DNA from: an uncultured Roseateles sp.
GTDB taxonomy: Bacteria; Pseudomonadota; Gammaproteobacteria; Burkholderiales; Burkholderiaceae_C
DNA: 64,000 nucleotides
Reading direction: 5' to 3'
Assembly: GCF_945956965.1 (NCBI RefSeq)
Contig: NZ_CAMFJS010000001.1
Location: forward strand, 248,001-312,000
The notes beneath the pieces were generated by a model that did no database searches, had not been told where the DNA came from, and was given only the letters and a program-made list of their open reading frames with translations. Every line of letters starts with the position of its first letter. The stretch's first letter is position 1. Shown in pieces: positions 6,421 through 55,629 of the stretch. The position numbers and the translations under genes were made by a program.

Positions 6421-7626
6421 TCAGGCCTTGATCAGGCCCAATTCGCGGCCGGCCTGGGTAAAGGCGGCCACGGCTTTTTCGAGATGTTCACGCTCATGGC
6501 CGGCGGACACCTGCACGCGGATGCGCGCCTGGCCCTTGGGCACCACGGGGAAGAAGAAGCCCACGGCGTAAATGCCCAGCTCCAGAATGCGGGCACTGAG
6601 GCGCTGCGCCATCACCGCGTCGTAGACCATGATGGGCACAATGGGGTGAGTGCCGGGCTTGATCTCAAAGCCGGCGGCCTGGATGGCTTCGCGGAAGTAG
6701 GCGGTATTGGCTTCGAGCTTGTCGCGCAGGGCGGTGGAGCTTTCCAGCAGATCCAACACGGCGATCGACGCGCCCACAATGCTGGGCGCCACGGTGTTGC
6801 TAAACAAATAAGGGCGCGAGCGCTGGCGCAGCAACTCGATCACTTCCTTGCGGCCCGAAGTGAAGCCGCCCGAAGCGCCGCCCAGGGCCTTGCCCAGGGT
6901 GCCGGTGATGATGTCGATCTTGCCAAACACACCGCGGTACTCATGCGTGCCACGCCCGGTTTTGCCCAGAAAGCCGCTGGCGTGGCATTCATCAATGCCC
7001 AGCAGCGCGCCGTACTGGTCGCACAGGGCGCGGATCTTGTCCAACTGAGCGATGGTGCCGTCCATCGAGAACACGCCGTCGGTGAAGACCAGGGTGTGGC
7101 GGGCGCCGGCGGCCTTGGCCGCTTCCAGCTGGGCGTGCAGATCGGTCAGATCGTTGTGCTTGTAGCGGAAGCGCTTGGCCTTGCACAGGCGGATGCCGTC
7201 GATGATGGAGGCGTGGTTCAGCTCGTCGCTGATGATGGCGTCTTGCTCGCCCAGCAGGGGCTCGAACAGGCCGCCATTGGCGTCAAAGGCTGCGGCGTAG
7301 AGGATGGTGTCCTCGGTGCCCAGGAACTTGGCCAGACGCTGCTCCAGCGTCTTGTGCAGATCTTGCGTGCCGCAGATGAAGCGCACGGAAGACAGGCCGT
7401 AGCCATGCGTGCGCAAGGCCTCATGCGCCGCTTCGATCACTTGCGGGTGCGATGACAAGCCCAGGTAGTTGTTGGCACAGAGATTGATGACCTCGCGGCC
7501 ATCATTCGTGTGCACCACCGCGCCTTGCGCGCCGGTGATGATGCGCTCGCTCTTGTAAAGCCCCGCCTCGCGGATGCCGGCCAATTCGGCCTGGATATGG
7601 GCGTAAAAGTCTTGCGTGCTGGCCAT
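6421..7626 (-). CDS. kbl: 2-amino-3-ketobutyrate coenzyme A ligase (glycine C-acetyltransferase)
   Basis: A 401-residue alpha-oxoamine synthase that cleaves 2-amino-3-ketobutyrate with CoA into glycine and acetyl-CoA. The PLP Lys is Lys246 in TGTLGKALGG, with DECHASG (Asp212) and HGYG near residue 75, all at positions expected from E. coli Kbl. The ATG at 7626 has a GGGAG ribosome binding site. The longer frame to 7656 has none. It is the first gene of a kbl-tdh operon that diverges from an XRE-cupin regulator gene; a promoter and a palindrome lie in the gap. Confidence 0.96.
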   Translation of the reverse strand: MASTQDFYAHIQAELAGIREAGLYKSERIITGAQGAVVHTNDGREVINLCANNYLGLSSHPQVIEAAHEALRTHGYGLSSVRFICGTQDLHKTLEQRLAKFLGTEDTILYAAAFDANGGLFEPLLGEQDAIISDELNHASIIDGIRLCKAKRFRYKHNDLTDLHAQLEAAKAAGARHTLVFTDGVFSMDGTIAQLDKIRALCDQYGALLGIDECHASGFLGKTGRGTHEYRGVFGKIDIITGTLGKALGGASGGFTSGRKEVIELLRQRSRPYLFSNTVAPSIVGASIAVLDLLESSTALRDKLEANTAYFREAIQAAGFEIKPGTHPIVPIMVYDAVMAQRLSARILELGIYAVGFFFPVVPKGQARIRVQVSAGHEREHLEKAVAAFTQAGRELGLIKA

Positions 7627-7677
7627 GGCTTGTCTCCCGCTGTGCGCTTGATGCACAATTCACTAAATTGAACACAG

Positions 7678-7691
7678 TTCGATATATCGAA
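7678..7691. promoter_or_regulatory. Candidate operator palindrome between kbl and the XRE-cupin gene
   Basis: TTCGATATATCGAA is a perfect 14-bp palindrome in the 105-bp divergent gap. It sits immediately downstream of the transcription start predicted from the kbl promoter, a position suited to repression. A second, weaker inverted repeat, CAATT-N5-AATTG, lies at 7656-7670. Binding by the neighbouring regulator is inferred from position only. Confidence 0.5.
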
Positions 7692-7700
7692 TTCGTGTGC

Positions 7701-7729
7701 AGTATCCAGGATTTCAAAACCAAGGTCAA
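7701..7729 (-). promoter_or_regulatory. Predicted sigma-70 promoter of kbl-tdh
   Basis: On the minus strand TTGACC (7729-7724) and GATACT (7706-7701) are separated by 17 nt. The expected start near 7694 leaves a 5' leader of about 70 nt before the kbl ATG. The -35 element overlaps the region just upstream of the regulator start codon. Confidence 0.45.
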
Positions 7730-7731
7730 GC

Positions 7732-8310
7732 ATGTCGCTCACGAATCCAGAGAGTCTCGAGCCCCCCAAAGTGGGCGCCACTTTGCAAGCGCTGCGGCAA
7801 GCGCAGGGCTTGTCGCTGGACGAACTCTCGCGCCGCGCTGGGGTGTCCAAGTCCATGTTGTCGCAGATTGAACGCAATCAGGCAAACCCGACCGTCGCGG
7901 TGGTTTGGCGCCTGGCCAATGCCCTGCGCGTGGAGTTGACGGAGCTGCTGGGCGGCGAGCGCAGCGCGCCGCCGGCCATCGAAACCGTGCCCGCCCACGC
8001 CACGCCGGGCATGAGCAGCCCGGACGGACTGTGCCAGTTGCGCATCCTCGGCCCCATCGATTTGGCCGGGCAATTCGAGTGGTATGAGCTGACGGTGCAG
8101 CCCGGCGGCGCGCTGGAATCAGCCGCCCATCAGCCCGGCTCGCGCGAGCACCTGAGTGTGCTCAAAGGCCATTTGGTGGTCAGCGCCGGCGGGGCTTCAC
8201 AGACCCTGAATGCCGGCGAGACTGCGCGTTATGCGGTGGACGGGCCGCATGCCATTCGCAATACCAGCAAGCAGCCAGCCGTGGCCTTGCTGGTGGTGCT
8301 TCACGCCTGA
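7732..8310 (+). CDS. XRE-family regulator with C-terminal cupin domain
   Basis: A 192-residue protein. Residues about 12-66 form a lambda-repressor-like helix-turn-helix (LSLDELSRRAGVSKSMLSQIE is the HTH core) and residues about 110-190 a cupin_2 barrel, the usual small-ligand sensing unit of this family (SutR/PuuR type). It is divergent from kbl-tdh across 105 bp holding a palindrome, so it is the obvious candidate regulator of threonine degradation; that role is inferred. Its stop region overlaps the convergent yihY-like gene by 10 bp. Confidence 0.88.
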   Translation: MSLTNPESLEPPKVGATLQALRQAQGLSLDELSRRAGVSKSMLSQIERNQANPTVAVVWRLANALRVELTELLGGERSAPPAIETVPAHATPGMSSPDGLCQLRILGPIDLAGQFEWYELTVQPGGALESAAHQPGSREHLSVLKGHLVVSAGGASQTLNAGETARYAVDGPHAIRNTSKQPAVALLVVLHA

Positions 8311-9581
8311 GGGACGCCCTGCGGCTCAGCGAGCAAATCAGCCAGCGTCAAACGATCCCAATCACTGCGCTGCCACAAAGACGCCAGGCCGGCACTGTGC
8401 TCGGCCAGCATGGCATTGAGCAGGCGCTTTGCCGGCGTCAGGCTGGGCTGGCAGAGCAGCACCAAGCGCTGTGCCCCGCCCTCCTCCAAGCGGCCGACCC
8501 AGTCCAGGCTCACCAAGCTGTCCAGCACGCCCTCCAACTGCAGCGGATCCACACGGATCGCATGGGCCAGCTGCGAGCTGGCAAGGCCGCCTTGGCCCCT
8601 GCCCTGCACGCGCCACAACTCACGCAGCACATCCAAGGCCAAGGCAAAGCCCACACCGGGTGCATCGGGCCGGCGCGGCATGCCGCCGCCCAAGCTGGGC
8701 GCATTGGCCGCCAGCACGGCGCCGATCAGCATGATCACCCAGCCCAGGTAGAGCCAGATCAGGAAGATGGGCACGATGGCAAAGGCGCCGTAGAGCGTGG
8801 AGTAAGTCGGCACCGCCTTCAAATACCAGGCCAGGCCCGACTTGGCCGCCGTGAAGGCCAAGGCCACAAACAGGCCGCCCACCGCCGCATGGCGCCAGCG
8901 CACATGGGTATTGGGCACATAGTGGAACAAGCCCGCCACGCCGCCCGCCAGGATCAAGATTTGAACCACATTAAAGCCGAAGGACCAGTTGCCGGCCAAG
9001 TCCCCCAGCAAATCACGCCCCGTGGTGACGGCATAGCTGGTCAGCGCAATGCTGCCGCCCAGGATCAAAGGGCCCAGGGTCAAAGCCGCCCAGTAAACCA
9101 GCACGCGCTGCGCCAAGGGGCGTGGCCGTTTGACCCGCCAGATCAAGTTGAGGGTGCGGTCTATGGTCAGCATCAAGGCCAAGGCGGTGATGCCCAGAAA
9201 AGCCAGACCCATGGCGCCCAGGCCCTTGGCCTTCATGGCGAACTGGGTGAGGCCCGTCATCACCGGGCGGGCGATATTGACCGGAATCAGGTTTTGCAGA
9301 AAGTACTTCTCCAAGGCCCCCTGAAAAGAGGAAAACATGGGGAAGGCGGTGAACAAGGCCAGCATCACGGTGATCAGGGGCACCAGCGAAATCAGCGTCG
9401 TGAAAGTCAGGCTGCCGGCGGTGAGGCCCAGGTGCTCTTCCAGAAAACGGGTGCGCAAATTGACCAAAACCAACCACAGACGGCTGCTGCGAATGCGATC
9501 GAAATGGCGGCTGGACACGGAGGCGGAATTGCTGATGACAGGGCGCAAGCTCTGGCCCTTGGACGGTGAAGAAATGCTCAT
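8301..9581 (-). CDS. YihY/BrkB family inner-membrane protein
   Basis: A 426-residue protein with about six transmembrane segments between residues 45 and 300, including the family motif LTAGSLTFTTLISLVPL near residue 52. A cytoplasmic C-terminal tail of roughly 130 residues looks like a winged-helix fold. The family was once called RNase BN, but that activity belongs to another protein, and its biochemical role is unsettled. The ATG at 9581 was chosen over upstream in-frame codons, which would run into the divergent gene. It converges on the XRE-cupin gene with overlapping stop codons. Confidence 0.82.
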   Translation of the reverse strand: MSISSPSKGQSLRPVISNSASVSSRHFDRIRSSRLWLVLVNLRTRFLEEHLGLTAGSLTFTTLISLVPLITVMLALFTAFPMFSSFQGALEKYFLQNLIPVNIARPVMTGLTQFAMKAKGLGAMGLAFLGITALALMLTIDRTLNLIWRVKRPRPLAQRVLVYWAALTLGPLILGGSIALTSYAVTTGRDLLGDLAGNWSFGFNVVQILILAGGVAGLFHYVPNTHVRWRHAAVGGLFVALAFTAAKSGLAWYLKAVPTYSTLYGAFAIVPIFLIWLYLGWVIMLIGAVLAANAPSLGGGMPRRPDAPGVGFALALDVLRELWRVQGRGQGGLASSQLAHAIRVDPLQLEGVLDSLVSLDWVGRLEEGGAQRLVLLCQPSLTPAKRLLNAMLAEHSAGLASLWQRSDWDRLTLADLLAEPQGVPQA

Positions 9582-9599
9582 GCTGGCTATGATGCCAGC

Positions 9600-10034
9600 A
9601 TGTCGTCCACCACGCCCCTCACACCCACCTCCCGCACCCAAGCCAGCCAGCGCGAGGCGCAAACGCGCCTGCTGGCCCTGGGCGCGCTGATTGCCCTGTT
9701 CCTACTCTGCTTAGCCTGGGAGTTATGGCTAGCGCCCACGGGCCGCGGCACCCTGGCCATCAAGGCTTTGCCCCTGCTGCTGCCCATGCTGGGCTTGTGG
9801 CGCTACCGGCTCTACACCTTCCGCTGGCTGAGCCTGATGATCTGGCTTTACTTCGCCGAAGGCGCCGTGCGCGCCACCAGCGAAGCCGGCCCTGCGGTGT
9901 GGCTGGGCACCTTGGAAGTGTTGCTAAGTGTGTTGGTTTTTGTGGCCTGCGCCATGCATGTGCGCTTGCGCATTGCGGCGGCCAAGGCGGCAAACGCGAA
10001 CAACGCCAACAGCACTGAGCCTGCAGGCGCATGA
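9600..10034 (+). CDS. DUF2069 membrane protein
   Basis: A 144-residue protein with four predicted transmembrane helices (about residues 25-47, 52-68, 75-92 and 103-122) and a short Ala/Asn-rich tail, matching the proteobacterial DUF2069 family of unknown function. It starts only 18 bp from the divergent yihY-like start codon. It overlaps the following FAD dehydrogenase gene by 4 bp (ATGA), so the two are translationally coupled. No function is assigned. Confidence 0.78.
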   Translation: MSSTTPLTPTSRTQASQREAQTRLLALGALIALFLLCLAWELWLAPTGRGTLAIKALPLLLPMLGLWRYRLYTFRWLSLMIWLYFAEGAVRATSEAGPAVWLGTLEVLLSVLVFVACAMHVRLRIAAAKAANANNANSTEPAGA

Positions 10035-11461
10035 GTCAAACGCCACTGCTGACGGCGCTGCGCGACGTGCTCGGCGAGGCGGGCCTGCGTGTCGGATGGA
10101 CTACTGATGGCAGCGCCGAAGATCTGTCGGCGTTTGAGAAGGACTGGCGTGGCCGCTACCAAGGCCGCGCACTGGCCGTGGCCAGCCCCAGCAGCACCGA
10201 ACAAGTCGCCGCCGTGGTGCGCCTGTGCGCTGCGCATGGGGTGAGCATCGTGCCGCAAGGCGGCAATACCGGGCTGGTGGGGGGCGGCGTGCCGGACAGC
10301 AGCGGCAGCCAGCTCTTGCTGAGCCTGCGGCGCCTGCACGCCGTGCGTGAACTCGATGCGGCCAACCTGACCCTGACAGTGGAGGCCGGCTGCAGCTTGC
10401 AAGCGGTGCAAGACGCTGCAGCCGCGAAAGGCCTGCTCTTCCCCTTAAGCCTGGCCTCAGAAGGCAGTTGCACCATAGGCGGCAATCTCGCCAGCAATGC
10501 CGGTGGCACGCAAGTGCTGCGTTATGGCAATGCCCGCGAGCTGTGCCTGGGCCTGGAAGTGGTGACAGCCAGCGGCGACATCTGGTCCGGCCTGAGCGGC
10601 CTGCGCAAAGACAACACCGGCTACGACTTGCGCCACTTATTCATCGGCAGCGAGGGCACGCTGGGCATCATCACCGCGGCCACGCTCAAGCTCTATCCGG
10701 CCCCGAAGGCGCAGCTGACGGCCCTAGCCGCTTGCGCCGATCTGGATGCCACGCTCGCCTTGCTGGCCCTGGCACAAGCACAGGTGGGCGCTTCGCTGAC
10801 GGCGTTTGAGTTGATGAACGACGCGTCAATGGCCTTGCTGCGCCGCCATCTGCCGCAGCTGGTTCAGCCACTCGCGCCCAGCGCCTGGACGGTCTTGCTG
10901 GAACTCTCAGACAGTGAAAGCGAAGCCCATGCGCAAGCGCAGCTGGAGCAGCTGCTGAGCGAAGCGGTGGACCGCGGCCTGGTGCAAGACGCCGCTGTGG
11001 CGCAGAGCCTGGCGCAGAGCCACACCATGTGGCAGCTGCGGGAGTCCATCTCCATGGCGCAGAGCAAGGAGGGGCTCAATATCAAGCACGACATCGCCCT
11101 GCCCGTCTCACGCATCCCCGCCTTTGTGGCGGGCACCGATGCAGCCTTGCGGGGCGGCTTTCCGGGCGTGCGCTTGATCACCTTTGGCCATCTGGGCGAC
11201 GGCAATCTGCACTACAACGTGCAAGCACCCGAAGGTGTCAGCGCGGCGGAATTCTTGGCCACGCGAGAGCCTGCCATCAACAGCCTGGTCTACGACGCGG
11301 TGCAGCGCTTTGGCGGCTCGATCTCGGCCGAGCACGGCATCGGCCAGCTCAAGCGCGAAGAGTTGGCGCAGCGCAAAGACCCCATTGCCCTGGCCTTGAT
11401 GCGGTCTATCAAGTCGGCGCTGGACCCGCAAGGTCTCTTCAATCCGGGGCGCTTGTTATAG
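10031..11461 (+). CDS. FAD-binding 2-hydroxyacid dehydrogenase (GlcD/D2HGDH-like)
   Basis: A 476-residue flavoprotein with an N-terminal FAD_binding_4 (PCMH/VAO) domain at about 40-220 and a C-terminal FAD-oxidase_C domain. Diagnostic segments are the PQGGNTGLVGGGVP pyrophosphate loop near residue 75, GSEGTLGIIT near 210, GHLGDGNLHYN near 390 and the terminal EHGIGQLKREEL. These enzymes oxidise D-2-hydroxyacids such as 2-hydroxyglutarate, lactate or glycolate and pass electrons to quinone or ETF. The exact substrate cannot be read from the sequence. It is coupled to DUF2069 by a 4-bp overlap. Confidence 0.85.
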   Translation: MSQTPLLTALRDVLGEAGLRVGWTTDGSAEDLSAFEKDWRGRYQGRALAVASPSSTEQVAAVVRLCAAHGVSIVPQGGNTGLVGGGVPDSSGSQLLLSLRRLHAVRELDAANLTLTVEAGCSLQAVQDAAAAKGLLFPLSLASEGSCTIGGNLASNAGGTQVLRYGNARELCLGLEVVTASGDIWSGLSGLRKDNTGYDLRHLFIGSEGTLGIITAATLKLYPAPKAQLTALAACADLDATLALLALAQAQVGASLTAFELMNDASMALLRRHLPQLVQPLAPSAWTVLLELSDSESEAHAQAQLEQLLSEAVDRGLVQDAAVAQSLAQSHTMWQLRESISMAQSKEGLNIKHDIALPVSRIPAFVAGTDAALRGGFPGVRLITFGHLGDGNLHYNVQAPEGVSAAEFLATREPAINSLVYDAVQRFGGSISAEHGIGQLKREELAQRKDPIALALMRSIKSALDPQGLFNPGRLL

Positions 11462-29064: not shown

Positions 29065-29577
29065 TCAGTTCTTGGCAGCGTGAGCTTTGAGCACGTCCAC
29101 CAACTCGTCCAGCCGCTCATGGCTCATGAAGCTGCACATCTGGCGGTCGTTGACCAGCATCACCGGGGAGTCGGCGCAAGCGCCCAGGCACTCGCTCTTT
29201 TGCACGGTGAACAGGCCGTCAGCGGTCGTACCGCCCTCTTCCACACCCAGCTTCTCGCACAGGTGGTTGAGCGCTTTTTGACCATCGCGCAACTGGCAAG
29301 GCAAGTTGGTGCAGACGTTCAGCTTGAACTGACCCAGCTTGCGCTGGTTGTACATGTTGTAGAAGGTCGTGACTTCGTAGACGGCAATGGGCGGCATGCC
29401 CAGATACTCAGCAATCACGTCCTCGCTCGCACGCGAGACAAAGCCAATTTCCTGCTGCACGATGGCCAAGCAGGCCATCACGGCCGAAGATTTTTGATCG
29501 GCCGGATACTTGGCGACTTCGCGGGCAAAGCGTGCGGCCGTGGCCTCGCTCAATTGATAGGTTTCAGTACTCATCAT
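29065..29577 (-). CDS. nuoE: NADH-quinone oxidoreductase subunit E
   Basis: A 170-residue thioredoxin-like [2Fe-2S] subunit (cluster N1a). Its Cys ligands are in CTNLPCQLR and CLGACADSPV. Two adjacent ATG codons (29577 and 29574) can serve as start. It lies 18 bp downstream of nuoD and forms the NADH dehydrogenase module with NuoF and NuoG. Confidence 0.96.
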   Translation of the reverse strand: MMSTETYQLSEATAARFAREVAKYPADQKSSAVMACLAIVQQEIGFVSRASEDVIAEYLGMPPIAVYEVTTFYNMYNQRKLGQFKLNVCTNLPCQLRDGQKALNHLCEKLGVEEGGTTADGLFTVQKSECLGACADSPVMLVNDRQMCSFMSHERLDELVDVLKAHAAKN

Positions 29578-49162: not shown

Positions 49163-50476
49163 ATGCTGTATCAACTTTTTGAAACCCAGCGCGCCCTGAT
49201 GAGCCCCTTCTCGGAGTTCGCCAGTGCCTCGGCCAAGCTCTACAGCCACCCGCTGTCGCCCTTTGCGCATTCACCGATGTCGCAGCGCGTGTCCGCCGGT
49301 TTGGATTTGATGCACCGCCTGGCCAAGGACTATGAAAAGCCCGAATTTGGCATTCGCGGCGTGGAAGTGGACGGCGTCGAAGTGGCGGTGCAGGAGCTGA
49401 TCCCCATCACCAAGCCTTTCTGCCGCCTGCTGCGCTTCAAGCGCTACACCGACGACCCCGCGGTGCTGCTGAAGATGAAGGACCAGCCCACCGTCTTGGT
49501 GGTCGCGCCCCTGTCCGGCCACCACAGCACCTTGCTGCGCGACACCGTGCGCCAATTGCTGAAGGACCACAAGGTCTTCATCACCGACTGGACCGATGCC
49601 CGCATGGTGCCGCTCGAAGAAGGCGCCTTCCATCTGGACGACTACATCAGCTATGTGCAGGACTTCATCCGCCACGTCGGCCCGGATTGCCATGTGATCT
49701 CCGTCTGCCAGCCCACCGTGCCGGTGCTGGCCGCCATTTCGCTGATGGCCTCTGCCGGAGAAAAGACCCCGCGCAGCATGACCATGATGGGCGGCCCCAT
49801 CGACGCCCGCAAGAGCCCGACCGCCGTCAACAATCTGGCCATGAACCGCAGCTATAGCTGGTTCGAAAACAATGTGATTTACCGCGTGCCGACCAACTTC
49901 CCTGCGGCCGGCCGCGCGGTCTACCCCGGCTTCTTGCAGCACACCGGTTTCGTGGCCATGAACCCGGACCGCCACCTGAGCTCGCACTACGACTACTTCC
50001 TCGACCTGGTGCGCGGTGACGATGACAGCGCCGACTCGCACCGCCAGTTCTACGACGAGTACAACGCCGTGCTGGACATGCCGGCCGAGTACTACCTCGA
50101 CACCATCCGCGTCGTCTTTCAAGATTTCTCGCTGGTCAATGGCACCTGGGATGTGAACGGCCAGCGTGTGCGCCCGCAGGACATCACAGGCACCGCCTTG
50201 CTGACCATCGAAGGCGAGTTGGACGACATCTCCGGTGCCGGCCAGACGCGTGCCGCGCACGGCCTGTGCTCAGGCATTGCGGCGGAACACCAGTACCACT
50301 ACGACGCCATTGGCGCCGGTCACTACGGCATCTTTGCCGGCCGCCGCTGGCGCGACAATGTCTACCCCGAGGTGAAGAACTTCATCCTGAAATACGACCG
50401 GCCAGATGCGCTGAGCCAGCCCCGCAGCGCCAACGCCGCCGCCCCCCGCAACAGTCGAAGCAAGAAGAGCGCTTGA
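49163..50476 (+). CDS. phaZ: Intracellular polyhydroxyalkanoate depolymerase
   Basis: A 437-residue enzyme that mobilises stored poly(3-hydroxybutyrate) granules. It has no signal peptide. The lipase-box equivalent VCQPT carries Cys182, matching the Cys nucleophile (Cys183) described for Ralstonia eutropha PhaZ1. Asp and His partners lie in the C-terminal PHB_depo_C region, with the His in the GAGHYG segment near residue 388. Its stop codon overlaps a TTG start of the following ferredoxin-like gene. A 242-bp gap precedes it. Confidence 0.94.
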
Positions 50477-51195
50477 CCCCTCACAGCCCCACCAGCCCCG
50501 CCACGTCCACCAGCCCTGAAGGCGCTGCCCACAGCATCACCCTCGCGCTGGCGGAACGTATTGACGCGGCCCTGCCGCAAACCCAGTGCACCCGTTGCGG
50601 CTACCCAGACTGCCGCAGCTACGCCCAGGCCGTGGCCGAGGGCAGCGCCGAGATCAACCAATGCCCGCCGGGCGGCGCCGAAGGTGTGGCGCGCTTAGCC
50701 GCACTGACCGGGCGCCCTGCCCTGCCCCTCAACCCGGACTTTGGCAGCGAAGGCCCGCGCCTGCTGGCCATCATTGACGAAGCCTGGTGCATTGGCTGCA
50801 CCTTGTGCATCAAAGCCTGCCCGGTGGACTGCATCGTCGGCGCGCCCAAAGCCATGCATGTGATCGTCGATGCCCAGTGCACAGGCTGCGAGCTTTGCAT
50901 CCCAGCCTGCCCGGTGGACTGCATCAGCATGGTCAATGTCAGCGGCGAGCAAACCGCCTGGAACGCTTGGAGTGCGCCGCAGGCCGAGCAGGCAAGGCAA
51001 CGCCACGACTTCCACCACAAGCGCATGGCCCGCGAGCCGGGTGAAAACAGCCTGCGCCTGCAAGCCAAGGCCGAGGCCAAGCTGGCCGATCTGGCCGCCG
51101 CCTCCAAGCTGACCGCGCCCAGCGATCTGGAACGCAAGCGCGCCGTGATCGAGGCTGCTTTGGCCCGCGCCAGAGCACAGCGCCAGGGCAGCTGA
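50473..51195 (+). CDS. RnfB-like iron-sulfur protein (RsxB family), stand-alone
   Basis: A 240-residue protein with an N-terminal Fe-S domain, Cys39-xx-Cys42-xxxx-Cys47 plus Cys64 (TRCGYPDC...NQCPPGG). It is followed by two [4Fe-4S] ferredoxin motifs ([15 protein letters not shown] and [15 protein letters not shown], about 100-145) and a charged helical tail. The membrane helix of true RnfB is absent from the N-terminus, and no other rnf genes are present. No ATG precedes the conserved part; the TTG at 50473, overlapping the phaZ stop, is the only plausible start. The exact electron partner is unknown. Confidence 0.86.
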
Positions 51196-51225
51196 CGGCA
51201 ATTCAGCGCGGCAAGGCGGGCGCAA

Positions 51226-52032
51226 TCAGGCCAGCGGCCAATCCTCGCTCATGCCCAGTTGCACGCCCAGGCTGGCCAGCAGTTCGCCAGCCTCGCCGCT
51301 GAGCCAGAACTGGCGCTCGCGCATCCGCGCGGCACGGATCGGGTCTGGCCTGGTTTGGGTGCCACCGGCGCGACCCGGGTGCGTCATCATCAAGCCCCCA
51401 TCGGGCAGTGAAGCCAGCCAACCCGCCACCCACTCGGCGAAGCTGATCGCTTCATCAAAACCGTAGACGCCCGCGAAGTCGGTATTGCAGCGCAGCCCTG
51501 CCCGACGCGCCCCGCGGCGCAGCGCTGCGGCGCCCAGGCTGGAAATCACGGCAGCCTTAGTCCCGCGCCAAGTCTGGTTACGCGTCGAGCGCAGTGCGCA
51601 GGCCTGGCCATAACGCGCCGTCACGGCTGACAGCAGTTCCTCGCGAATCAGCGGCAACTGGTGCACATGCTGGTGCCCATCGACATAGCTAGGCGCCTGT
51701 TTCATCTGAGCTTCGAAGGCGTCGAGCTGGCTGGCAATCCAATCCCGCACCGCCCCGCGCGGCAACTGGCGGAAATAGCTCAGTCGGATCCAATCCGACA
51801 ACCCGCGCTCTGGCGCATAAGGCGCAAACTCATTCACATCCAGATGCAGGCCGTAGTCGGCGGCGCCCTGGCGTTCACGCAGGGCGCCAGCCCAGGTGGG
51901 CCAGGCAGGCGACAAGACCATGCAGCTGGTCGCACTCAGCCTCCCGGCGTCTATGCACTCCAAAATGCCTTGGCTGACGGCATCGTCAAAGCCAAAGTCA
52001 TCCGCGCAGATCTGGATTCGCTTGGCGCTCAT
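51226..52032 (-). CDS. ChbG/HpnK (YdjC-like) family carbohydrate deacetylase, NaxD-like
   Basis: A 268-residue metal-dependent deacetylase. Metal and catalytic residues are visible: Asp11-Asp12 in CADDFG, His63 in GLHLDVN, and the His cluster DGHQHVHQLP at 118-127. The family removes N-acetyl groups from sugars. NaxD of Francisella and the Bordetella homologue deacetylate an undecaprenyl-phosphate-linked N-acetylhexosamine. The ATG overlaps the GtrA stop (ATGA). With the three genes upstream it fits a lipid A modification pathway; chitooligosaccharide deacetylation is the alternative. Confidence 0.86.
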   Translation of the reverse strand: MSAKRIQICADDFGFDDAVSQGILECIDAGRLSATSCMVLSPAWPTWAGALRERQGAADYGLHLDVNEFAPYAPERGLSDWIRLSYFRQLPRGAVRDWIASQLDAFEAQMKQAPSYVDGHQHVHQLPLIREELLSAVTARYGQACALRSTRNQTWRGTKAAVISSLGAAALRRGARRAGLRCNTDFAGVYGFDEAISFAEWVAGWLASLPDGGLMMTHPGRAGGTQTRPDPIRAARMRERQFWLSGEAGELLASLGVQLGMSEDWPLA

Positions 52033-52412
52033 CCTGCCGCCAGCTTGTTGCGAAAAGCCCAGAAGCGGCTCAAGACCCAAGTCATCGCGGCCACCGCGAC
52101 CAAGACGATCAGCAACGCGAGACGGTATTCCAGGCCCAAGCCCAACAAGACCGCATAGAGCAGCTCATTGCAAACAAAACCCAGCACCGCCACCAGGGCA
52201 AAGCGCGGCAAGGCGGACTTCACCGAGGCCTGCTGCGCCGCAAAGCTGAGGCGGTGATGGCCTAAGAAGCTGACGCCAAACGCGATCAGAAATCCCGCCA
52301 CATTGGCCGCCAGTGCAGGCAGCTGCCATTGGGAGACCAAGAGCCAGACGACCGAGAAATGCACCGCCGCAGCACTGGCCCCAACGAGGCCAAACCAGAG
52401 CAGCGAACTCAC
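52029..52412 (-). CDS. GtrA-family membrane protein
   Basis: A 127-residue protein with four predicted transmembrane helices (about 5-25, 35-52, 70-92 and 98-118). The motif NVAGFLIAFGVSFLGHHRLSF and the terminal SRFWAFRNK match GtrA, a family proposed to flip undecaprenyl-phosphate-linked sugars across the inner membrane. The GTG start overlaps the stop of the glycosyltransferase gene (GTGA), with GGAGG just upstream. It also overlaps the deacetylase by 4 bp, so the three are tightly coupled. Confidence 0.85.
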   Translation of the reverse strand: MSSLLWFGLVGASAAAVHFSVVWLLVSQWQLPALAANVAGFLIAFGVSFLGHHRLSFAAQQASVKSALPRFALVAVLGFVCNELLYAVLLGLGLEYRLALLIVLVAVAAMTWVLSRFWAFRNKLAAG

Positions 52413-53443
52413 AACTCCTCCGGGCCACTCAAGGGCGGCGTCAGCTCTTGCACGAGATAGAGCGGGCGCTGCTTGACCTCGTCGAAGACCCGGCCCAGGT
52501 ATTCCGCAATGATGCCCAAGCAAATCAGCTGCACGCCGGCCAGGAACGTGATCGACGCCGCCAAGGTGGCAAAGCCCGAGACCGGATTACCCAGGAACAC
52601 CTTCTCCAGAATGATCCAGATGGCAAAGAAGACCGAGAACACCGACACCACCATGCCCAACATCGACACCATGCGCAACGGCACTTTGCTGAAAGCCGTC
52701 AGCCCCACCACGGCCAAAGACAGCAGGCGCATGAAATTGAAGCTGGTCTCACCATGCGCACGCGCATCCGGCACGAACTCAATCGCCTTGGACTTGAAGC
52801 CCACCCAGGCGAACAAGCCCTTCATATAACGCGCCCGCTCGGGCAGGCTGCGCAAGGCCAGCACCACGCGGCGGTCCAGCAAGCGGAAGTCGCCCGCATC
52901 CGAGGGCAGCTCAAAGCGCGAGTCGCGCTGCATCAGCCAGTAAAAGAATTTGGTGTAGCTGCGCCGCGCGAGCGACTGCGACTCTCGCCGCCCGGTCTGC
53001 ACGCCGTAAACCACGTCGTACCCAGCACGCCACAGCGGCAGCATGGCCAAGACGGTGGCAATCGGATGCTGCCCATCCGCATCCATGCTCAGCACCACAT
53101 CGCCTTCCGCCGCATCCAGGCCGGCCGACAGTGCGGCCTCCTTGCCGAAATTGCGCGACAAGCGCAGCAGCCGCACCGGCAAGCCCTGCTGGATCAAGCT
53201 GTGCACCACCAGGGCGGTGCCGTCCTTGCTGCCGTCGTCCACCACCAACAATTCCAGCCGCCGCGCCTCGCCGCCCAATTTGGCTGCCAACTCGGGCAAA
53301 AACCAAGCCAGATTGGCGGCTTCGTTGAAGGCCGGCAGCACCACCGACAGGAGACCCGGCTGGGCGCGCTCCGGCGCGGCCATACCCTGTGAGGTGGCTA
53401 GGGAAGTATTCAAGGTCGTGGTCGAAAGAGAGGTCTGTTGCAT
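52409..53443 (-). CDS. Family 2 glycosyltransferase, polyprenyl-phosphate type (ArnC/DPM1-like)
   Basis: A 344-residue GT-A enzyme. It has the nucleotide-sugar motif VVDDGSKDGT (Asp69-Asp70) and the metal motif Asp121-Ala-Asp123 (MDADGQHP). Two C-terminal transmembrane helices at about 240-300 are typical of enzymes that load a sugar on undecaprenyl phosphate (ArnC, GtrB, FlmF2). The start ATG overlaps the stop of the upstream ArnT-like gene by one base (TGATG). By analogy with Francisella FlmF2 it may make undecaprenyl-phosphate N-acetylhexosamine; the donor sugar cannot be read from sequence. Confidence 0.87.
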   Translation of the reverse strand: MQQTSLSTTTLNTSLATSQGMAAPERAQPGLLSVVLPAFNEAANLAWFLPELAAKLGGEARRLELLVVDDGSKDGTALVVHSLIQQGLPVRLLRLSRNFGKEAALSAGLDAAEGDVVLSMDADGQHPIATVLAMLPLWRAGYDVVYGVQTGRRESQSLARRSYTKFFYWLMQRDSRFELPSDAGDFRLLDRRVVLALRSLPERARYMKGLFAWVGFKSKAIEFVPDARAHGETSFNFMRLLSLAVVGLTAFSKVPLRMVSMLGMVVSVFSVFFAIWIILEKVFLGNPVSGFATLAASITFLAGVQLICLGIIAEYLGRVFDEVKQRPLYLVQELTPPLSGPEEL

Positions 53444-54888
53444 CAGCGTTTGGATCCTGCGACGCCGTCGTCGCGCAGCAAGCATTGTTCCTTGTTGCAG
53501 GCCAATGCTGCACTGGGGCGGGAAGATTTTTTCGGCACCGGCACGACGATATAGGCGGCCGCGCCAGGCTGCCCCGGAATGCCCTCATACAGGCGGCCAG
53601 CAGTATAGAAAAAGGCCGAATACGGCGGCTTGGCCTGATAAGTCAGGCGGCAATCCTGGGCCGGGCAAGCCGCTTGATAAGCCTGAATCAGCGGCAGGTC
53701 CGAGTGTTGGCGCCCCACTTCGGGCAGTTTGATGAAGAAGGCCCAGGCATAGATCAGGCCCAAAACCCCGGCCAGGCCCCAGGCCGGCGCACGCGCCCAA
53801 GACTTCGCCGGCAGAACCATCACGGCCAAAATGGCCAGCCCCGGCAAGGCCGTCATTGCATAGGTGAAGATCAGATTGCGGGCCATGCTGAACAAGAGCA
53901 GCGGCGCCAGGGCGATGCAAACGGCATAGCAAGCCAGCTCCACCCCGCCAGAACTGCGCAGCTGCGCCAGCACCGCGCCCTTGCCTTGGCGCAGGCGCAG
54001 CAGGGGCAGGCGCGTCAACAGCAGCAGCACGGCCGGCAAAGCGGCCACTGCAGTAAAGGCCCAGATGATGCCCAAGGGTTGCGCATGGGCGAAGCCGTAG
54101 CGGTCGCCCTTCCAGCCGGGCTGCAAGAAGCGCATGACATGCTCACCAAGCACGAAATACTGCAAGAAGCCCGGCGTCTTGAGTTCCGCCACGATGTACC
54201 AGGGCAGCGATAGCCCCAGGCAGATCAGCCACACCGAGGGCATGCGCAAGACCGTCCACACCAGCGCCCAATGGCCGCGCCATCCCGCGTGCATCAAGAT
54301 GGGCAGCAAGGCCAGCACGGCAGCCGCCGGGCCCTTGGTCAACAAGGCCAGCGCCATGCCAAATCCCAGCACTCGGGCCGCCAGTACTCGCGCTTGACCC
54401 TCGCTTTGCAAGACTCGCCACCAGGCGGCCTGGACCAGCATCACGCAAGCGCCCAGGGTCGCGTCCGTCATCACCGCCCCGGCACTGATAAAAAACAAGG
54501 GGCTCAAACTCAAAATTGCCAGACCGGCCCACAGCTGTACGCGGCTCAGGCTGATGTTCAGCATCCAAGCCAGTGCCGCCAGACTCAGCACGCTCCAGCC
54601 CACGGCCGGCAAGCGTGCCGCCCATTCGCTGACGCCAAACACCTCAATCGACAAGGCCTGACCCCAGGTGGACAGCGGCGGCTTGGCCCAGAACACCTCG
54701 CTGGGCGTGATGTGCGGGCTGATCCAGTCGCCCAGGCTGACCATCAGGCGGGCAATCTCCGCGTAGCGCGCCTCGGTGTGATCGGTCAGCGGCATGGTGG
54801 CCAGGCTGAACAAGCGCAGCAGCAGCAAGAAGCCCAGCAAAATAATCCAGGGGCGTGCGGCGGAGCGATTCTCGGAAGGCAGGTTCAT
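53443..54888 (-). CDS. ArnT-like lipid A glycosyltransferase (GT83/PMT family)
   Basis: A 481-residue integral membrane protein with about 11-12 transmembrane helices. The first periplasmic loop carries DHTEARYAEIAR (Asp36, Glu39, Arg41), the catalytic-acid motif of ArnT/PMT enzymes. LTKGPAAAVLALLP near residue 205 and a soluble C-terminal domain of about 90 residues follow. It would transfer an aminosugar from undecaprenyl phosphate to lipid A in the periplasm. The ATG at 54888 was chosen because it immediately precedes TM1. It is the first gene of a four-gene coupled set and diverges from nth. Confidence 0.88.
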   Translation of the reverse strand: MNLPSENRSAARPWIILLGFLLLLRLFSLATMPLTDHTEARYAEIARLMVSLGDWISPHITPSEVFWAKPPLSTWGQALSIEVFGVSEWAARLPAVGWSVLSLAALAWMLNISLSRVQLWAGLAILSLSPLFFISAGAVMTDATLGACVMLVQAAWWRVLQSEGQARVLAARVLGFGMALALLTKGPAAAVLALLPILMHAGWRGHWALVWTVLRMPSVWLICLGLSLPWYIVAELKTPGFLQYFVLGEHVMRFLQPGWKGDRYGFAHAQPLGIIWAFTAVAALPAVLLLLTRLPLLRLRQGKGAVLAQLRSSGGVELACYAVCIALAPLLLFSMARNLIFTYAMTALPGLAILAVMVLPAKSWARAPAWGLAGVLGLIYAWAFFIKLPEVGRQHSDLPLIQAYQAACPAQDCRLTYQAKPPYSAFFYTAGRLYEGIPGQPGAAAYIVVPVPKKSSRPSAALACNKEQCLLRDDGVAGSKR

Positions 54889-54984
54889 GGGAAGCAAAAA
54901 ATGCGGGCGGTGATGAGGCAACAAGACAACGGGCGCCATCATGCCTGAGCTTTGAGGCCGATGGGCAGTGGACAATGCCGCCCC

Positions 54985-55629
54985 ATGAACAGCGCGCAAA
55001 TCCAAACCTTCTTCCACACCCTGCGCGCCGCCAACCCGTCGCCGCAGACTGAACTCGAATATGCCAGCGTGTTTGAGCTGCTCGCGGCCGTGTTGCTATC
55101 CGCCCAAGCCACCGATGTTGGCGTCAACAAGGCGACGCGGCGCTTGTTCCCGGTCGCCAACACGCCGCAGAAGATCGTCGACTTAGGCCTGGAGGGCTTG
55201 AGCGACTACATCCGCACCATCGGCCTCTACCGCAGCAAGGCAAAGCATCTGTATGCCACCTGCAAGATCCTGCTCGAACAATATGGCGGCCAAGTGCCGC
55301 GTACCCGCGAAGCGCTGGAGAGCCTCCCGGGTGTGGGCCGCAAGACCGCCAATGTGGTGCTGAACGTGGCTTTCGGCGAGCCGACCATGGCGGTGGACAC
55401 GCATTTGTTCCGCGTCAGCAATCGCACCGGTCTGGCGCCCGGCAAGACGCCTTTGGCAGTAGAACTCGGGCTGCTCAAGCGCATCCCAGCGGAATTCATG
55501 GTCGACGCCCATCATTGGTTGATCCTGCATGGGCGCTATGTCTGCAAGGCCAGGCAGCCTTTGTGCGCTGCCTGTGCTGTGGCCGCCCAGTGCGACCATG
55601 GTCGCCGCCTACAATCAGCAATTGATTAG
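54985..55629 (+). CDS. nth: Endonuclease III
   Basis: A 214-residue DNA glycosylase/AP lyase for oxidised pyrimidines. The helix-hairpin-helix LPGVGRKTANV holds the catalytic Lys120, and Asp138 follows in VDTHLFRV. The [4Fe-4S] ligands are Cys187, Cys194, Cys197 and Cys203, all at E. coli positions. The ATG at 54985 matches family starts; an in-frame ATG at 54961 would add eight residues. In many proteobacteria nth lies next to rnf genes; here the rnfB-like gene is separated from it by the four-gene glycosylation cassette. Confidence 0.96.
   Translation: MNSAQIQTFFHTLRAANPSPQTELEYASVFELLAAVLLSAQATDVGVNKATRRLFPVANTPQKIVDLGLEGLSDYIRTIGLYRSKAKHLYATCKILLEQYGGQVPRTREALESLPGVGRKTANVVLNVAFGEPTMAVDTHLFRVSNRTGLAPGKTPLAVELGLLKRIPAEFMVDAHHWLILHGRYVCKARQPLCAACAVAAQCDHGRRLQSAID

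Follow-up and report, generated by a model that had tools for sequence, protein, structure and literature searches.

What does a four-gene cassette of an uncultured Roseateles sp., in which the gene for an ArnT-like transferase is followed by genes for a sugar synthase, a GtrA protein and a deacetylase, add to the cell envelope, and how do its enzymes relate to known systems? The cassette occupies positions 51226-54888 (minus strand) of a 64,000-nucleotide stretch of contig NZ_CAMFJS010000001.1, hereafter the window. A first-pass annotation had read it as a lipid A hexosamine pathway of the FlmF2/NaxD/FlmK or Lgm type. The cassette is real and coherent. Its products would probably synthesize an amino sugar unit for the envelope, trim it, flip it across the membrane and attach it. 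Judged from its sequence, it appears to be a hybrid of a NaxD-type donor module and a transferase of a separate branch, called TE here, which carries threonine, serine or alanine before a conserved glutamate at the place where ArnT and other DE-type enzymes carry aspartate. All parts appear to be of known kinds, and the attaching enzyme from the TE branch is what would set the cassette apart. The four genes are:

53443..54888, minus strand: ArnT-fold GT-C transferase, 481 amino acids, PMT_2, TE branch (Pfam, alignment, tree, model)
52409..53443, minus strand: GT2 polyprenyl-phosphate sugar synthase, 344 amino acids, GtrB/sll0501-like, YdjC-linked clade (Pfam, scores, trees)
52029..52412, minus strand: GtrA family membrane protein, 127 amino acids, GTG start, candidate flippase (Pfam)
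51226..52032, minus strand: YdjC/ChbG-superfamily deacetylase, NaxD-like, 268 amino acids (Pfam, scores, residues)

All four reading frames are open, and the best Pfam match of each gene lies over the gathering cut-off (PMT_2, Glycos_transf_2, GtrA_DPMS_TM and YdjC, respectively). From the transferase through GT2 and GtrA to YdjC, the genes overlap by 1 nt (TGATG), 4 nt (GTGA) and 4 nt (ATGA), exactly as first described. Among 17 hand-picked related cassettes, 44 of 51 junctions measure -1 or -4 nt and the remaining seven -14 to +19 nt, with a bias toward short distances because the start nearest to the previous stop was taken. The four families are found together across genera in the cassette neighbourhoods compared, and together with the recurring tight junctions this exceeds chance. 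The YdjC gene is the only one in the genome. With GtrA, a GtrB-type GT2 and a GT-C enzyme the operon has the composition of a Gtr three-component system. The GtrA protein, pointed out earlier as a candidate flippase, is indeed present but is no special addition, since the A. baumannii naxD operon and several sister cassettes have one as well.

The kinship of the donor module shows in its GT2. Library matches favour sll0501 (GtrB-type, E 6e-79) over ArnC (E 2e-39), and the bit score against the GT2 of the Acinetobacter baumannii naxD operon (310.5) exceeds those against GtrB (227.6) and ArnC (138.9). An ArnC identity was rejected because GtrB and sll0501 score better. The window and A. baumannii GT2s share a 47-row clade with support 100 in a quick tree, 46 rows of which are labelled YdjC-linked; the quick trees of transferase, GT2 and YdjC carry support from the Shimodaira-Hasegawa-like approximate likelihood ratio test (SH-aLRT) only. 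In a careful tree of 58 rows chosen out of 127, both are located in a 27-row clade with support 100/99. Pieces below 250 amino acids, rows below 180 bits and duplicates were left out, and the second of the GT2 quick trees, the one with the 47-row clade, was calculated without L195, L130 and E. coli ArnC. GT2 rows for which no transferase was found are displayed with the DE group, and the TE rows L107 and L139 are labelled YdjC-linked owing to a second cassette next door. Partner transferases within the YdjC-linked clade are of either the TE or the DE type, and a constraint grouping the GT2s with TE partners was rejected (approximately unbiased test, p-AU 0.0024), a result weakened by the definition of the group after the quick tree. 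The GT2 tree predicts which GtrA-GT2-GT39 cassettes handle amino sugars, namely those with a YdjC-linked GT2, a rule usable by annotators.

Two observations were made alongside. In Rhodoferax (L129, L139) a TE cassette adjoins a YdjC/DE cassette, an arrangement that would allow an exchange of parts. Pseudomonas abyssi and Vreelandella aquamarina have identical GT2 rows (L186, L187), which reflects either recent transfer or contamination.

Because many tree loci had been fetched for carrying YdjC, 150 genomes were searched with the GT2 alone. A YdjC gene lies within 8 kb of 44 of the 49 GT2 matches of at least 285 bits, versus 4 of 19 at 200-285 bits (Fisher p 9e-8, the relatives not being independent). 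This linkage appears to provide the strongest evidence for a deacetylase that would act on the product of the GT2.

The deacetylase itself scores 117 bits against NaxD and 28 bits against E. coli ChbG. Residues D11, D12, H63, D118, H120, H122 and H218, which from the family we take to have metal-binding or catalytic roles, are identical in all 60 YdjC rows (pieces below 200 amino acids or 90 bits left out), and Q121 is found in 57 of them:

51667..51675, minus strand: H120-Q121-H122 of YdjC (alignment)

Thirteen well-conserved positions, including C9, W44, G119, Q121, R130, K159 and D230, are common to the window YdjC and NaxD and differ in ChbG, the sole outgroup of this comparison; NaxD's own position in the YdjC quick tree is not starred. 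The window enzyme is closer to NaxD than to ChbG, and its active-site residues are intact. Alternatively, it could act on chitooligosaccharides like ChbG or on hopanoids like HpnK and adjoin a glycosylation operon by accident. Among the NCBIfam models it does match HpnK with 50.7 bits and chitin disaccharide deacetylase with 44.7 bits, both far under the cut-offs of 232.6 and 227, and the A. baumannii NaxD candidate likewise gives only weak matches of this sort. Against such an enzyme stand the 4-nt overlap with GtrA, which recurs in relatives, the GT2 linkage and the NaxD-like residues, and this alternative is highly improbable. A ChbG or HpnK identity was rejected on scores and residues. The comparison suggested at the outset, NaxD against chitooligosaccharide enzymes, comes out on the NaxD side by scores and residues. 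As far as sequence goes, the N-acetylhexosamine route with deacetylation that had been favoured is supported by the scores against the naxD operon, the GT2 clade and the linkage.

The anchor for this comparison is CP040041.1 (L223), where a ChbG/HpnK gene annotated from 7007 is followed by GT2, GtrA and GT39 genes (7007-10814); the YdjC and GT39 matches are spaced by about 2 kb in all four A. baumannii records matched. The PmrA box printed for naxD (CTTAAG-AAAAC-TTTAAG; PMC9431647) lies as an exact copy at 6894-6910, 96 bp upstream, and because of this box the gene was taken as naxD. Three matches to the loose PmrA consensus are present in the locus, against 0.85 expected, and it is therefore the exact identity of the box that counts. 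In A. baumannii, NaxD is assigned a role in lipid A (PMC10927774, PMC9431647), and the steps of galactosamine (GalN) transport and attachment are called unidentified (PMC9431647). The GT2, GtrA and ArnT-like GT39 genes behind naxD are obvious candidates for these steps; a joint mention of naxD, GtrA, Acinetobacter and operon was found in no paper of the literature searched.

The AlphaFold model of the window enzyme (predicted local distance difference test, pLDDT, 90.7; predicted TM-score, pTM, 0.91) has ArnT 5f15 (CmArnT) as its best PDB match with a TM-score (TMq) of 0.73 and an E value of 4.6e-16, and the model of a relative (pLDDT 89.5, pTM 0.90) also matches CmArnT best (TMq 0.76). In the sequence alignment, Thr38 is located at the place of the CmArnT aspartate, which we take to be residue 55, so that the aspartate of the ArnT/naxD-operon type is missing:

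54763..54783, minus strand: motif D36-H-T38-E39-A-R-Y42, with T38 at the place of CmArnT Asp55 and D36 two residues before

Since the modelled helix spans residues 39-52, Thr38 would be positioned at its tip; in ALG6, ArnT and PglB the catalytic aspartate is situated at the apex of this helix (PMC12041525).

Among 80 aligned ArnT-like proteins, collected with a window-type query or for having YdjC, the Asp55 column holds threonine in 47, serine in 7 and alanine in 3 (57 TE rows) and aspartate in 23, followed by an invariant glutamate. Two positions before, the 57 TE rows have aspartate (48), glutamate (2), glycine (6) or serine (1); an alternative acid is therefore common, not universal. In the quick tree of the 80 proteins TE and DE are separated by one split (support 99, starred) with the motif columns removed. 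The DE side holds E. coli ArnT, on a long branch, and the A. baumannii naxD-operon GT39, and the window transferase shares no clade with them. Glu84 of CmArnT was rejected as a discriminating residue, DE rows also being devoid of it (histidine in 22 of 23). What had been called an ArnT-like transferase is thus ArnT-like in its modelled fold but not in its grouping.

A scan of genome contigs, in which 541 of 591 stretches among the matches listed are relatives, yielded 80 kept loci. All 80 have threonine, serine or alanine at the Asp55 position, keep the following glutamate and have aspartate or glutamate two residues before; since query and patterns were both of the TE type, the scan tells how far the branch has spread and not how large its share is. 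The names Bordetella and Francisella do not occur at the 80 loci kept out of the matches listed. Within 4 kb and in the same orientation, 63 loci have a GT2, 17 a detectable GtrA and 7 a YdjC, all lower bounds because GtrA is short and diverged and some contigs end early. TE transferases occur in many other cassettes without deacetylase, and they constitute a widespread, little-studied branch devoid of the residue thought to be catalytic. A threonine at this position could also mean that the transferase has little or no catalytic activity, with an operon that is decaying or serves another step, and the match in one relative at a greater distance (G322) is interrupted by a stop. However, none of the 14 strong matches in the genus contains an internal stop (the match in G410 spans residues 7-401 only), and the conservation of both acidic positions at all 80 scan loci makes this reading very unlikely.

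Several TE cassettes are located on plasmids, and metal-transport or metal-resistance genes lie near three of the five that were read. The GtrA-GT2-GT39 cassettes at L224 7226-10130, L228 5555-8371 and L225 5586-8473 are found near metal-efflux or metal-sensing genes: the Pantoea cassette is situated after a CusA/CzcA efflux operon, that of P. putida pKF715B has a lipid A phosphoethanolamine transferase and heavy-metal regulators nearby, and that of Marinobacter lies a few kb from manganese and cobalt/nickel transporters, with a two-component system following. Of the two cassettes without metal genes (L231, L232), one is accompanied by transposases and a LysE translocator and the other by a two-component system. 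On pKF715B the transferase has the TE motif TSEARYAE, and a ColR box, of which none is expected by chance, lies 23 bp before gtrA. Both ColR (PMC2689224) and zinc activate PP0035 in P. putida, where a strain deleted for PP0035-PP0033 shows a minimum inhibitory concentration of zinc of 4 instead of 5 mM (PMC4074579). These genes encode GtrA together with ArnC-like and ArnT-like proteins (PMC2689224, PMC4074579) and are given as gtrABM in a metal-resistance cluster (PMC3056050). The 'gtrM' of pMOL30 was rejected as a TE example; it is of the DE type, and cassettes named gtrABM therefore comprise both types. The TE relatives support a role of the transferase in lipopolysaccharide (LPS) or the envelope and do not bear on the sugar. 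As a separate observation, the Pseudomonas phage Y11 record (OQ572412.1, marked UNVERIFIED; L226 5001-5918) contains a piece of a TE-type transferase with the motif DTTEARYGE, which may belong to a surface modification carried by the phage or to host sequence that entered the record.

A large ArnT-fold branch without the presumed catalytic base questions or refines the mechanism of GT-C enzymes. Tentatively, the TE transferases, which occur on chromosomes, on plasmids and in one phage record, could be a distinct catalytic class that has given up the aspartate base of ArnT, ALG6 and PglB, either because the acceptor needs none (e.g. a phosphate) or because an acid of the D36 type substitutes for it. 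Plain and deacetylating donor modules as well as TE and DE transferases would then be swapped between cassettes, so that sugar and target evolve separately. For a phosphate acceptor a base may be dispensable, but this argument is weak because E. coli ArnT and CmArnT act on phosphate and yet keep the aspartate.

What the sequence shows are the gene families, their coupling and the relationship between the donor module and the naxD operon; substrate, flipping and acceptor we infer as follows. We consider it fairly probable that the cassette encodes a three-component GtrA/GtrB/GT-C envelope glycosylation system with its own deacetylase acting at the carrier level. The GT2 would transfer an N-acetylhexosamine (HexNAc) from a UDP-sugar onto undecaprenyl phosphate (Und-P) at the cytoplasmic face, YdjC would remove the acetyl group from Und-P-HexNAc on the cytoplasmic side, GtrA would move Und-P-hexosamine across the membrane, and the TE transferase would attach the amino sugar to a periplasmic envelope acceptor. 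The acceptor is most likely LPS, perhaps a lipid A phosphate, our first choice in view of the ArnT fold and of a donor module of the naxD type. Both lipid A as acceptor and the cationic-peptide phenotype predicted earlier are inferences.

The same donor chemistry could serve another acceptor, such as the LPS core, O-antigen or an envelope protein. This is a possibility of some standing, if the less probable one: the GT2 and GtrA are of the Gtr type, classical three-component Gtr systems act on O-antigen (PMC11127046), TE transferases form a clade of their own, and gtrM (PP0033) of P. putida is filed under 'protein o-glycosylation' (PMC3056050). Against it stand ArnT as the best fold match and the role in lipid A ascribed to A. 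baumannii NaxD. It is rather unlikely that the cassette is a full member of the FlmF2/NaxD/FlmK or LgmABC(D) systems, with all parts orthologous and GalN or glucosamine (GlcN) placed on lipid A phosphates as in Francisella and Bordetella. The same activities would be expected, with lgmA-C needed and lgmD not essential in Bordetella (PMC4993483) and FlmK using C55-P-GalN to place GalN on the 1-phosphate of lipid A (PMC6581854). However, the window transferase lacks the aspartate, and a tree branch divides it from E. coli ArnT and the GT39 of the naxD operon even with the motif columns removed, although LgmB and FlmK might be of the TE type. Of the lipid A hexosamine pathway first proposed, the donor half (GT2, GtrA and YdjC) stands, whereas the transferase half, as tested, does not.

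Several points weigh against an envelope amino sugar placed on a lipid A phosphate. Among the 49 strong GT2 matches, YdjC lies only on another contig in three and was found in none of the contigs in two; a second, smaller YdjC-linked GT2 group falls outside the main clade, and the trees are enriched in rows fetched for carrying YdjC. The sugar could be N-acetylglucosamine (GlcNAc), N-acetylgalactosamine (GalNAc) or another HexNAc. E. coli ArnT and CmArnT, both modifiers of lipid A phosphates, keep the aspartate absent from the window enzyme. As we know of no chemistry for any TE-type transferase (no search for it went beyond the literature consulted), a lipid A acceptor rests on the fold and the printed 'ArnT-like' label of PP0033. 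The plasmid relatives were compared by sequence and KT2440 PP0033 by its description; no ColR box is present near the window cassette, the sole match in the 64-kb window being at 29267-29282. Finally, GalN on lipid A was undetected in A. baumannii isolates with naxD present (PMC9431647).

The site of the cassette is delimited by two conserved neighbours:

50266..51195, plus strand: RsxB-like ferredoxin open reading frame, tail to tail with the cassette, start position provisional
54889..54984, no strand: 96-bp intergenic region from which cassette and nth diverge, presumably with the promoters of the two, without ColR box
54985..55629, plus strand: nth (endonuclease III), head to head with the cassette

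In 14 of the 18 genomes searched from the genus of the window, the transferase is found with at least 599 bits, beside nth in 11 and on a different contig in three (G297, G399, G357), whose placements have common, partly rearranged neighbouring DNA. A strong match is absent from the other four: G401, G404, G402 (93% complete) and G405 (76% complete). In G401 and G404 the RsxB and Nth matches share a strand and are separated by some 50 and 40 bp, and L215 and L216 represent this RsxB-nth site without cassette in two same-genus genomes, as compared with 50266-55629 of the window. The RsxB-cassette-Nth arrangement is kept in four further genera (L044; L045; L046, L096 and L097; L095), and Pseudogulbenkiania ferrooxidans (L189) has the gene order of the window cassette. 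In a distant cassette relative (L098, G322), the transferase match contains a stop and YdjC extends across two frames, due to either decay or assembly error.

Compared with known systems, the cassette resembles Bordetella LgmA/B/C/D and Francisella FlmF2/NaxD/FlmK by their descriptions, which comprise glycosyltransferases plus a deacetylase and hexosamine on lipid A phosphates. With enterobacterial ArnBCADTEF it shares the ArnT fold; unlike there, YdjC and GtrA occupy the places of ArnD and ArnE/F, the GT2 is nearer to GtrB than to ArnC and the Asp55 position is threonine. An aminoarabinose (Ara4N) pathway was rejected, as the genome holds no convincing ArnA (the E. coli query matches with 28% identity to residues 5-305 and 27% to 283-556 with an internal stop). 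The absence of ArnA/B/D noted at first was checked, and stands, for ArnA alone. GtrA/GtrB/Gtr O-antigen glucosylation has the same GT2 and GtrA families and three-component logic, whereas the window cassette employs an ArnT-like GT-C enzyme and an added deacetylase. P. putida PP0035-PP0033/gtrABM is described as the same set of GtrA, GT2 and ArnT-like protein; the plasmid relative also has a TE motif but, in contrast to the window, has a ColR box and no deacetylase, and its GT2 falls on a long branch apart from the clade of the window GT2. The PmrA-regulated A. baumannii naxD operon differs in gene order and in its DE-type transferase (PDEGRYGD versus the TE type of the window). Like the window, however, it has YdjC, GT2, GtrA and GT39 side by side on one strand, with the GT2s in one clade and NaxD-like residues in YdjC.

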